64,000 bases of DNA, from NCBI RefSeq assembly GCF_000024225.1, contig NC_013203.1:1054001-1118000 (forward strand), read 5' to 3'. The stretch's first letter is position 1. The number at the start of each line of letters is the position of its first letter. This document shows, piece by piece, positions 17,575 to 58,202 of the stretch. Origin of the DNA: Lancefieldella parvula DSM 20469. Lineage in GTDB: Bacteria > Actinomycetota > Coriobacteriia > Coriobacteriales > Atopobiaceae. The notes under the pieces are model-generated. The model saw only the letters and a list, made by a program, of their open reading frames with translations, was not told the DNA's origin and made no database searches. Both the position numbers and the translations under genes were made by a program.

Positions 17575-17619
17575 AGATTACTCCTGACTCAAAAAGTTAA
17601 CTAGAGCTACCTTATCACG

Positions 17620-38349: not shown

Positions 38350-38652
38350 TTATGCCTGTGCGCCCTCTGCGTCAACTTGCTTGGTAACCTCAGCGCGGAT
38401 ACCCTCCTCAAGCTCAGCAAGGCGAGCGCGAACAGCAGCATCAATCTTAGACTCACGACGAGCCTCTGCAACAACGTCATTAGCCTCGTCAACAACGTTC
38501 TGAGTCTCTGCGGAAACGCGATCAGTTACGAGAAGACCACATGCAGTTGCTTTGACAGCTGCCTTGTGAAGAATACCGTCAGAAGCAAGTCCAGCGACAA
38601 CGCTAGCAAGTGCAGCGCCACCAGCTACAAGACACCACTTGTGCAGTTTCAT
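38350..38652 (-). CDS. DUF6110-like small membrane-associated protein
   Basis: A 100-residue protein with a short N-terminal hydrophobic, Gly/Ala-rich segment (KWCLVAGGAALASVVAGLASDGIL), a conserved-looking middle (AAVKATACGLLVTDRV) and a charged helical tail. Small proteins of this kind (DUF6110-like) are found next to P1B-type ATPase genes. Its stop is three bases before the ATPase ATG, and GGGGGA provides its ribosome site. It may be an accessory or chaperone subunit. The family assignment is from memory and only moderate. Confidence 0.6.
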   Translation of the reverse strand: MKLHKWCLVAGGAALASVVAGLASDGILHKAAVKATACGLLVTDRVSAETQNVVDEANDVVAEARRESKIDAAVRARLAELEEGIRAEVTKQVDAEGAQA

Positions 38653-40150: not shown

Positions 40151-41323
40151 ATGACCCAATCACAGGTAACCATTACCTCCTCTGAACGCGAAGCCGCTAT
40201 TGTACGTACCAGTGCTATTGGCATTGCGGCCAATGTTGCACTTGCGGCATTCAAAGCTGCAGTGGGTATTCTTTCCAACTCAATTGCTGTCACTCTTGAT
40301 GCAGTTAACAATCTTTCTGATGCAATCTCATCAATCATTACAATTGTCGGAACCAAACTCTCTAACAAAAAAGCTGATCGCGAACACCCTTTTGGTCACG
40401 GGCGCATTGAATACATCACTACAACGGTAATTGCTGCAATCATTATGTATGCAGGTATTTCTTCACTTATTAAATCTATCCAGGACATTATGAATCCTGC
40501 AACACCAGACTATAGTCCCCTGTCTTTAGTCATCATTGCTGTAGCTGTACTGGTAAAGATTGTTTTGGGTCACTATGTTCGTACTATTGGTAATCGCGTA
40601 AACTCCGACACACTTGTTGCTTCAGGTTCTGACGCGCTATTTGATGCCATGCTTTCTACTTCTGTTCTAGCGGCTGCTCTTATCTTTATCTTTACGGGAA
40701 TTAGCCTTGAAGCATACGTAGGAGTTGTTATCTCTGCATTCATCATCAAGGCTTCAATTGAACTGTTACACGATTCTATTAAAGAGATTATTGGAATGCG
40801 TCCTGACGCAGCTCTTTCAACACTCATCTATGACATTGTAAAAGATGACCCAGATGCAGAGGGTGTCTACGACCTTATCATCCATAGTTATGGTCCAGAT
40901 AAATTTGTTGGATCATTCCATACTGAGGTTCTTGATACCACTTCAGCTATTGAGATTGATACGATGATCCGACGTCTGAGTACAGAAATATACAACCAAA
41001 CATCAGGCAAAATCATCATTGCTGCTATTGGTATTTATGCGAAAAACACCACTGATAATCGCATTATAAAGATGCGTACTAAAGTTACTGAAATGGCTTT
41101 AGCTCATGAAGGAGTTCTTCAAATTCATGGCTTTATTGCTGACATTGAAAACCAATTTATGGCCTTTGATGCTGTTATTGAGTTTGGCTATGATGGCAAG
41201 CAAATTATTCACGATATTATTCATGAAGTAGAAGAGGTCTACCCTGACATGAATGTCTCGATTCTTTTAGATCGCGATACAAGTGATTTATCCGAGCAAG
41301 AGGATGCTGGAGACTTAGCCTAA
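40151..41323 (+). CDS. Cation diffusion facilitator (CDF) metal exporter
   Basis: A 390-residue CDF-family transporter: six transmembrane helices (about residues 15-215) and a cytoplasmic ferredoxin-like C-terminal domain. The metal site reads N-x3-D in helix 2 (LDAVNNLSDAI) and D-x3-D in helix 5 (SDALFDAML). This resembles Mn/Fe-type rather than Zn-type CDFs, which usually have His at one position. REHPFGHGRIEY is the conserved loop. It begins seven bases after ohrR. Exporting Mn or Fe during peroxide stress would make sense, but that is inference. Confidence 0.88.
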   Translation: MTQSQVTITSSEREAAIVRTSAIGIAANVALAAFKAAVGILSNSIAVTLDAVNNLSDAISSIITIVGTKLSNKKADREHPFGHGRIEYITTTVIAAIIMYAGISSLIKSIQDIMNPATPDYSPLSLVIIAVAVLVKIVLGHYVRTIGNRVNSDTLVASGSDALFDAMLSTSVLAAALIFIFTGISLEAYVGVVISAFIIKASIELLHDSIKEIIGMRPDAALSTLIYDIVKDDPDAEGVYDLIIHSYGPDKFVGSFHTEVLDTTSAIEIDTMIRRLSTEIYNQTSGKIIIAAIGIYAKNTTDNRIIKMRTKVTEMALAHEGVLQIHGFIADIENQFMAFDAVIEFGYDGKQIIHDIIHEVEEVYPDMNVSILLDRDTSDLSEQEDAGDLA

Positions 41324-41343
41324 TCTTAAGCAATTACAGCTAT

Positions 41344-41463
41344 AAAAAGGGGCGAGCCGCTGACACCCAGAGTCAGCGGCTCGTGTTCTACGCTCGCAAG
41401 AAAGGGAGAGGGTCTTTCTTCGAGCTACGGGAACCTGAAAAAAGCAAGCAACTAAATTGCTTA
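41344..41463 (-). ncRNA. Candidate metal-responsive small RNA (element 2)
   Basis: A free-standing RNA of about 120 bases on the minus strand. It begins near 41463, passes TTGCTTTTTTCAGG, and folds into a hairpin with arms GCTCG-AAGAAAG/CTTTCTT-G-CGAGC (41425-41392) and loop ACCCTCTCC. It ends in a perfect 12-bp stem (41383-41353) followed by CCCC and T5. There is no reading frame, and the only downstream gene runs convergently, so it cannot be a leader. The CU-rich loop could pair with Shine-Dalgarno sequences, as in the iron-regulated sRNA FsrA of Bacillus. Confidence 0.6.
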
Positions 41464-41468
41464 AAAAC

Positions 41469-41497
41469 ATAATAAGTTAACCTAGGAAAACTTACAA
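41469..41497 (-). promoter_or_regulatory. Promoter with internal operator driving the small RNA
   Basis: -35 TTGTAA (41497-41492) and -10 TATTAT (41474-41469) are separated by exactly 17 bases. The spacer holds an imperfect palindrome with outer arms TAAGTT/AACTTA and centre CCTAGG (41473-41494), matching at 9 of 11 pairs. A repressor bound there would block RNA polymerase. Confidence 0.62.
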
Positions 41498-41607
41498 GGA
41501 TATTTTCAACATTTTCAGCCAACCTCGTAAACTCTACAAAAAGTTAGACTAAGTTTACGCATCTATGGATTTTTATCTTACCTTAAGATAATCCAAAAAA
41601 CGTAAAC

Positions 41608-41641
41608 AAAAAATCCCTCGTACCAGATTGGTACGAGGGAT
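41608..41641 (-). terminator. Intrinsic terminator of feoB
   Basis: A 12-bp stem, ATCCCTCGTACC (41613-41624) with GGTACGAGGGAT (41630-41641), is followed on the minus strand by TTTTTT, 27 bases after the feoB stop. Confidence 0.9.
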
Positions 41642-41667
41642 CAAATCAACTTAAGAAATAAGTAACT

Positions 41668-57887: not shown

Positions 57888-58202
57888 CAGAACTCCTTTT
57901 TCTATTTAGGTGTCTTTTCAGCTGACCTGGTATTTGACCCCACACTCGCATACTGGAACGTTTGCTTTACTACCGCAGTAGCTCCACTAATAGCTCTCTC
58001 GCCTGCGAGACCCTTTGTCTCATTTATATAACAGGCGGTACGGCTTACTTCTAGGACGAGCCATGATCGTTTACGTGCGCACACATAAACTTACGTGGAT
58101 CCCTTTGACCTCGTCTGTCATGGACTAGAAGCTCATAGAGAACTTCGCAACCACAGACCTGAAAAGACTCATAAATTATAGCTGTTTGCAGTCATAGTTA
58201 AC
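57888..58202. other. Region between comF and the orphan binding protein
   Basis: 315 bases. On the minus strand a TATAAT hexamer lies about 30 bases past the comF stop, suggesting a new promoter there for the binding protein, though no good -35 is seen. Several very short frames with start codons lie in the leader, and one 60-codon frame (57902-58084) ends 14 bases before the binding protein start. Confidence 0.4.
57902..58084 (-). CDS. Possible small protein of 60 residues
   Basis: Not recognised. The frame encodes a basic first half (MCARKRSWLVLEVSRT) and a Ser/Thr/Gln-containing second half (GATAVVKQTFQYASVGSNTR). The ATG has only a weak ribosome site (CGTAAG). Its stop lies 14 bases before the binding-protein ATG, so translation could be coupled. 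It may equally be leader sequence. Confidence 0.3.
   Translation of the reverse strand: MCARKRSWLVLEVSRTACYINETKGLAGERAISGATAVVKQTFQYASVGSNTRSAEKTPK

Follow-up and report, generated by a model that had tools for sequence, protein, structure and literature searches.

A structured RNA located downstream of feoB in Lancefieldella parvula DSM 20469 belongs to a family that, as far as tested, is found mainly in Atopobiaceae. The family has a conserved structure with covariation and a conserved C-rich loop. Its members are associated with iron genes and with an operator, and Shine-Dalgarno sites complementary to the loop are biased toward genes for iron proteins. The RNA is best explained, with a probability of about 0.72, as a trans-acting, terminator-ended, metal-repressed iron-sparing sRNA that is most likely controlled by a DtxR-type protein. 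This explanation implies that the RNA would be transcribed, that it would respond to metal through this particular repressor, and that it would pair directly with mRNAs. The stretch of DNA analyzed (64,000 nucleotides, hereafter the window, from a genome of 1,543,805 bases) contains two copies (Table 1), the second of which was absent from the original prediction.

In the proposed mechanism, a metal-sensing repressor, for which the one DtxR-type protein found in the genome is the likeliest candidate, would occupy the operator AAGTTAACC-NN-GGTTAACTT when metal is plentiful and keep the promoter off. When iron is scarce, the repressor would leave, and the RNA would accumulate alongside the products of iron-uptake and flavodoxin genes. 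The single-stranded and nearly invariant CCUCUCC loop would then pair with the GGAGAGG Shine-Dalgarno sequences of iron-protein mRNAs, and this pairing would block translation and so spare iron. Release of a repressor in scarcity, accumulation of the RNA and a translation block are described for FsrA and IsrR in passages of PMC9410917 and PMC12871923.

Table 1. Positions, within the window, of the two RNA copies, their predicted signals and adjacent genes
Feature	Start	End	Strand	Remarks
sRNA copy 1	41344	41462	minus	~119 nt; 5' end placed from the -10 box
Promoter of copy 1	41469	41497	minus	TTGTAA-17-TATTAT; scan and genus comparison
Covarying hairpin of copy 1	41392	41425	minus	Loop ACCCTCTCC at 41405-41413, the proposed seed
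Intrinsic terminator of copy 1	41344	41383	minus	12-bp stem, 7-nt loop, T5; scan
Operator of copy 1	41474	41493		Over promoter spacer; matrix score 20.3, the window maximum; among the 74 matrix-building sites
Second operator-like site, upstream of copy 1	41541	41560		Score 14.3
feoB	41668	44328	minus	Upstream of copy 1; own terminator at 41612-41642
Weak operator-like sites upstream of feoA	44920	45000		Scores 8.6, 6.0 and 8.3; within random-top range
Cation_efflux (CDF efflux) gene	40151	41323		Convergent; next gene downstream of copy 1
sRNA copy 2, core	35875	35964	minus	R2 E value 2.0e-9; loop UCCCCUCUCC at 35943-35934; terminator, then T5
Operator-like sites before copy 2	36006	36051		36006: 17.1, in matrix; 36032: 19.0, outside matrix
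DUF3793 gene	35113	35859	minus	Start codon 15 nt beyond end of copy 2 match
Flavodoxin gene	34624	35028	minus	Behind DUF3793

The copy 1 unit was originally predicted as a free-standing small RNA, and most of its parts are borne out. A scan recovers the minus-strand promoter, the terminator stem followed by five T residues, and the terminator that separates feoB from the unit. The hairpin exposes the C-rich loop, and in the palindrome described for the promoter spacer, AAGTTTTCCTAGGTTAACTT, 16 of the 20 positions agree with the reverse complement when read directly. Transcription would start near position 41462. The 6 kb that were scanned contain 8 promoter-like matches when 9.7 are expected, which is the chance level, so the weight of the copy 1 promoter derives from its conservation. 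All five genomes of the genus carry a -10-like box (TATTAT, TACTAT or TATTCT) together with the operator half GGTTAACTTA. The 119-nucleotide RNA has a predicted folding energy of -48.2 kcal/mol (z = -4.8), which none of 200 shuffled sequences equals. The terminator loop of copy 1, UCUGGGU (41365-41371), is identical in all five copy 1 loci of the genus and could pair with the ACCC of the C-rich loop, either as a kissing interaction or in a dimer. In the consensus of the wider family, the terminator loop is C-rich, unlike UCUGGGU.

Contrary to the original description of the unit as free of any reading frame, a 51-amino-acid ORF (41315-41470, minus strand) spans it. The ORF is kept in the nearest relative, G002, as might be expected if the unit encodes a small protein. 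However, the longest frames in the other three genomes of the genus have 11, 11 and 35 amino acids and unlike sequences, and the stems of the RNA covary. We reject a small protein because it is contradicted by the genus alignment, and we give it scarcely any probability at all.

The copy 1 unit is found in five of five genomes of the genus, including its own. For three of these genomes, the BLAST match covers the 3' half alone; the stems have diverged with pairing kept, and the loop ACCCUCUCC and the operator half are unchanged. Among the four distinct sequences of the genus, 99% of cells pair, and double-change cells number 8, compared with 4.0 in shuffles. Wider searches of 140 genomes of the family used two covariance models, of which R1 is the first and R2, built from 12 sequences, the second. 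R1 has matches at E values of at most 0.1 in 23 of the 140 genomes. Besides the genus, these matches comprise seven loop-bearing relatives in four other genera and 12 sequences without the loop (L065-L068, L070, L072, L074, L076, L078, L079, L082 and L083), which were dropped by eye as terminator-like hairpins. Several of these rejected sequences come after an apparent feoB end. R2 matches 106 of the 140 Atopobiaceae genomes at E values of at most 0.1, and 87 at E values below 1e-6. Eighty of the strongest R2 matches, from 79 genomes, were fetched with their flanks. CCTCTCC (CCUCUCC in the RNA) lies within the core of 79 of these 80 copies, a figure that is partly expected because R2 was built on that loop. 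Outside the family, 20 of 255 genomes of the order give candidate matches at E values of at most 1e-3 (best 2.6e-7), and we thus make no claim that the RNA is confined to the family. Two matches to the RNA model fall within a single fetched stretch of at most 12 kb at L172, L180 and L120; the two at L120 stand before DUF3793 and after flavodoxin.

A MAFFT alignment of 12 sequences contains 36 double-change cells, compared with 13.0 in shuffled alignments. When 91 matches are aligned to the model, the corresponding values are 297 and 76.9, in an alignment that is biased toward the model and includes seven weak matches (27.8-31.5 bits), of which three or more consist of the terminator alone; it is not pure, because the places of L065, L066 and L067 recur among its seven weakest rows. 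RNAalifold, applied to a separate MAFFT alignment of 81 cores, recovers the four innermost pairs of the loop hairpin along with the terminator of 12 pairs. With all settings pooled, every one of the seven loop columns is occupied by a single base in 79 to 81 of the 81 cores. The original prediction had staked itself on conservation of the loop and terminator in relatives, and had proposed a covariation search of the hairpins. Both elements are conserved, and the stems carry changes in both arms around a loop that does not vary.

It was also considered that the region might be a shared terminator of convergent genes, accompanied by chance hairpins, with no functional RNA. The terminator hairpin does score on the opposite strand as well, and terminator-only matches exist. 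Yet the loop hairpin covaries, the loop and operator are conserved, and the unit stays in place while its neighbors change. A shared terminator alone is very improbable and is rejected on the basis of the covariation and the loop conservation.

The family copies are frequently near genes related to iron or other metals. Genes for feoA/feoB, flavodoxin or DUF3793 occur within 6 kb (less at contig ends) of 53 of the 80 fetched copies, and within 1.5 kb of 39. Inclusion of ZIP-like genes directly upstream, which were recognized by the motif HNIPEG and in one example confirmed by Pfam, brings the count to 58 of 80. The RNA is located behind feoB on the same strand in 28 of the 80 copies, directly behind ZIP in 26, and directly before DUF3793 in 19, one of which is copy 2 of G002. 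One copy (L069) lies just past the apparent stop codon of a flavodoxin gene. No Feo, flavodoxin, DUF3793 or ZIP gene was found near 22 of the 80 copies, although one of these 22 (L167) adjoins an MntP-type pump. In genus g29, a CDF efflux gene is 1.6 to 2.3 kb from the RNA. Among 21 chance loci (about 3 kb or less each), a single Feo, flavodoxin or DUF3793 gene was found, at L012, and this locus is itself a family member, being the same place as the match in G028. A 100-amino-acid protein without a Pfam or NCBIfam match is encoded on the minus strand (38350-38652) before a P-type ATPase gene in the window, and the same protein recurs beside the ATPase near some other RNA copies.

Copy 2 is followed by DUF3793, flavodoxin and then an HMA-domain gene. 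Its position and terminator imply that the RNA is there the terminated leader of the DUF3793-flavodoxin operon. The original statement that the RNA is not a leader therefore holds for copy 1, but not for copy 2 or for the 19 fetched copies directly before DUF3793. In these 20 leader loci (the 19 fetched copies and copy 2 of the window), the gene start, as set by a rough start-codon rule, is 15-187 nt beyond the terminator. A high-scoring operator lies between terminator and gene in three of them (L129, L140 and L151), and none is present in the other 17. Most leader genes would thus need read-through of the sRNA terminator, barring an unrecognized promoter in between. In genus g9, the RNA stands before DUF3793 at six loci (L168, L177, L178, L182, L183 and L185) with no recognizable operator within 200 nt. 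By eye, a short frame apparently lies between the RNA and DUF3793 at the g9 loci, and an enolase-like frame is upstream at L185.

The leader loci raise the alternative that the RNA is chiefly a cis element, such as an attenuator or leader for the downstream gene, and that free-standing copies are relics. Copy 2 and the 19 fetched copies upstream of DUF3793 fit this alternative, as do the 17 loci without an intervening operator. In contrast, copy 1 is kept in all five genomes of the genus even though no gene follows it on its strand, 28 copies are behind feoB, and the loop is conserved when all settings are pooled. We regard a chiefly cis-acting role as improbable. It is possible, although we hold this more tentatively than the iron-sparing function itself, that a single RNA module acts at both ends of the iron response: in the flavodoxin setting, the repressor-controlled promoter would first yield the terminated leader, which would itself be the iron-sparing sRNA, and flavodoxin would be made solely via read-through. 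A single transcript would then couple the iron-free substitute with the silencing of iron proteins, and the terminator decision would set their ratio. As part of the same tentative reading, copies of the module might have arisen in other family members, placed behind feoB-ZIP or flavodoxin or standing as a free gene.

The operator precedes most copies. Sequences conforming to it in at least 12 of 18 bases occur within 200 nt upstream of 69 of 82 copies, compared with 4.6% of Markov shuffles, in a test that is not fully independent, since three of the tested copies had supplied the first reading of the consensus. At this level and distance, no operator was found for the remaining 13 of 82 copies. 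The top matrix scores of five random 64-kb sequences range from 7.9 to 13.6, and the sites in the window that exceed all five are the two at copy 1, the two at copy 2, and one at 17594 (15.8). This last site (17594-17613) is just upstream of a lipoprotein gene that resembles, by eye, an ABC substrate-binding protein, and it possibly belongs to the same regulon. For operator-like sites upstream of the P-type ATPase operon, the scores fall inside the random range. A genome-wide search for the pattern with at most 3 mismatches gives 13 forward matches and 14 reverse ones, at 17 distinct places; the reversed pattern gives 5 and 5. Fourteen of these places were examined, seven of which are inside ORFs and the rest intergenic. 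One (C1:321156) is within the 3' end of an ABC-3 permease ORF. The best match is 95 nt before a gene for a ZnuA-type metal-binding protein, and other intergenic matches are 49 nt before ahpC (named by eye) and 26 nt before a DUF438/hemerythrin gene.

Regulators encoded by the genome include one DtxR-type and one FUR-type match. When compared by eye alone with the Fur box, the operator looks different, which makes a DtxR-type regulator the more likely one. It has half-site letters in common with the canonical DtxR/IdeR box (TTAGGTTAGSCTAACCTAA), in a different arrangement by eye, and because of these letters a DtxR-type protein is named as the likeliest repressor. No operator was found at the DtxR gene, where the best score within the surrounding 3.2 kb is 7.1.

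Candidate targets were sought as genes preceded by GGAGAGG, the complement of the conserved loop, with GAGGAGG, which has the same composition, as control. The pattern GGAGAGGN{3,11}ATG was searched in genomes G000 and G003, with GAGGAGGN{3,11}ATG as the control pattern. A stricter earlier 8-mer pattern, GGAGAGGGN{2,12}ATG, had given 6, 13 and 9 matches, compared with 0, 5 and 4 for the reversed pattern, many of them not gene starts. Every G000 match was examined, 30 for the target and 40 for the control pattern, and 17 and 33 of them, respectively, head ORFs of at least 80 amino acids. Iron proteins, as judged by Pfam names, are encoded by 7 of the 17 GGAGAGG genes and 2 of the 33 GAGGAGG genes (p=0.0044), under an iron criterion that was set once some of the targets had already been inspected. 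The targets are rubrerythrin, two Fe-ADH family proteins, a hybrid-cluster protein, two DHODB Fe-S flavoproteins and one Fer4 protein; the controls are an Fe-hydrogenase and again this Fer4 protein, with both motifs present at its site. Without this shared gene, the counts are 6 of 16 and 1 of 32 (p=0.0036). Seven control ORFs and one target ORF lack an in-frame stop just upstream and are possibly internal; without them, the counts are 7 of 16 and 2 of 26 (p=0.009). One of the Fe-ADH targets is glycerol dehydrogenase, which is usually a zinc enzyme, and its removal gives p=0.013. The other 10 of the 17 GGAGAGG genes do not encode iron proteins by Pfam name. NCBIfam names identify three further targets as RlmD, an acyl-CoA dehydratase activase and a YgfK fragment, which falls below the NCBIfam cut-off because its sequence is incomplete. 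On the basis of these names and known biochemistry, we take these three to be Fe-S proteins.

For G003, 33 of 35 matches were examined and yielded 21 ORFs, six of which encode iron proteins. A scan identified four of them as desulfoferrodoxin, a Fer2 protein, Hcp and an Fe-ADH family glycerol dehydrogenase, and similarity marks the other two as orthologues of rubrerythrin and a DHODB protein. The G003 control set (27 of 47 matches fetched) yielded 16 ORFs, and two of the 8 that were scanned have iron in their Pfam descriptions. One is an Rrf2-type regulator (L352), the other a ParA/NUBPL-type NTPase (L340), and neither is a plain iron enzyme. G031, which represents a second genus, has 23 matches and 11 ORFs (all scanned but L376). 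Pfam names mark three of the 11 as iron proteins (p=0.09 when set against the control of G000), and pyruvate:ferredoxin oxidoreductase brings the number to 4 (p=0.027 against the same control). L361 appeared NifU-like by eye, matched no Pfam family, and was left out of the iron count. GGAGAGG precedes rubrerythrin and one Fe-ADH gene in both genera, and the flanking bases differ.

Predicted duplexes between the copy 1 loop and the sites have median energies of -14.0 kcal/mol for targets and -10.8 kcal/mol for controls, a difference that the selection of sites alone would yield. Pairing with the anti-Shine-Dalgarno sequence is alike for the two sets (-13.1 for targets and -13.8 for controls), so the control is fair with regard to site strength. 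We infer that the loop would block translation of iron proteins by pairing with the GGAGAGG Shine-Dalgarno sequences. For copy 1, both the response to metal and the pairing of loop and target are predicted from sequence.

Alternately, the same sRNA might respond to manganese, or to divalent metals generally, through an MntR-like repressor. DtxR-type proteins include manganese sensors, a CDF efflux gene is beside copy 1 and not far from the RNA in g29, and ZIP-like genes are directly upstream of 26 of the 80 copies. The MntP-type pump at L167 and the operator before the ZnuA-type gene also fit such a signal. However, the Feo genes, flavodoxin and the iron-protein target sites indicate iron, and we consider a manganese signal unlikely.

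Rfam 15 yielded no match for positions 41300-41600 at E values up to 10; the 4227 models searched presumably include that of FsrA, and we take the 6C model to be part of the same library. The original proposal of an FsrA analogue is supported with regard to iron by the gene neighbors, the distribution of operators and the bias of complementary Shine-Dalgarno sites toward iron proteins; by Rfam, the RNA is not an FsrA homologue. The RNA is best read as an iron-sparing sRNA that is an analogue, and not a homologue, of FsrA, IsrR and MrsI. With its conserved C-rich proposed seed in a hairpin loop, it would form a new family within an already known functional type, the C-rich-loop iron-sparing sRNAs.

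FsrA of Bacillus subtilis, a Fur-controlled iron-sparing sRNA, resembles the RNA as proposed here in its iron-linked promoter control, its C-rich region directed against Shine-Dalgarno sequences, and its iron-protein targets, as described in passages of PMC9410917 and PMC12871923. In contrast to FsrA, copy 1 lacks an Rfam match and its operator is not Fur-like by eye, and the RNA described here has a single hairpin loop of 9 nt, is present more than once and can be placed as a leader. IsrR of Staphylococcus, according to passages of PMC9410917, is an iron-repressed sRNA with C-rich single-stranded regions and a terminator, conserved across a genus together with its operators. IsrR differs in its three C-rich regions and its pair of Fur boxes, and copy 1 has no Rfam match. 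MrsI of Mycobacterium tuberculosis, as presented in part of PMC8628891, is an actinobacterial iron-sparing sRNA with a promoter site for the DtxR-type protein IdeR, and its regulation follows a comparable logic; its six-nucleotide seed and its targets, hypF and bfrA, set it apart. The same source describes 6C RNA of high-GC Gram-positives, which also has C-rich loops that bind mRNAs, as two stem-loops with six cytosines; copy 1 does not have two hairpins with six-C loops. CcsR1 (RF02791) shares the motif CCUCCUCCC, and one relative matches it weakly; this match was rejected as chance, since 22.2 bits is far under the gathering score of 65.3. Matches to microRNAs, far under their cut-offs, were also rejected.

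A literature search yielded no such RNA in Coriobacteriia or Atopobium among the matches listed, with few subscription journals covered, and the literature on Coriobacteriia named no regulatory sRNA among the matches listed. A term search of the main text of PMC8040213 gave no match, and a search for DUF3793 found nothing relevant. Within the window, a raiA RNA occurs on the minus strand at 57913-58167 (171.8 bits). The raiA RNA is a large structured RNA whose function is unsettled.

Coriobacteriia inhabit the human mouth and gut. If the proposed function is true, C-rich iron-sparing RNAs that block Shine-Dalgarno sequences would have arisen independently once more. The leader arrangement would couple the sRNA to flavodoxin supply, an arrangement with no equivalent in the literature consulted. 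The family-wide sequence set, the predicted operator and the named candidate targets are ready for testing.
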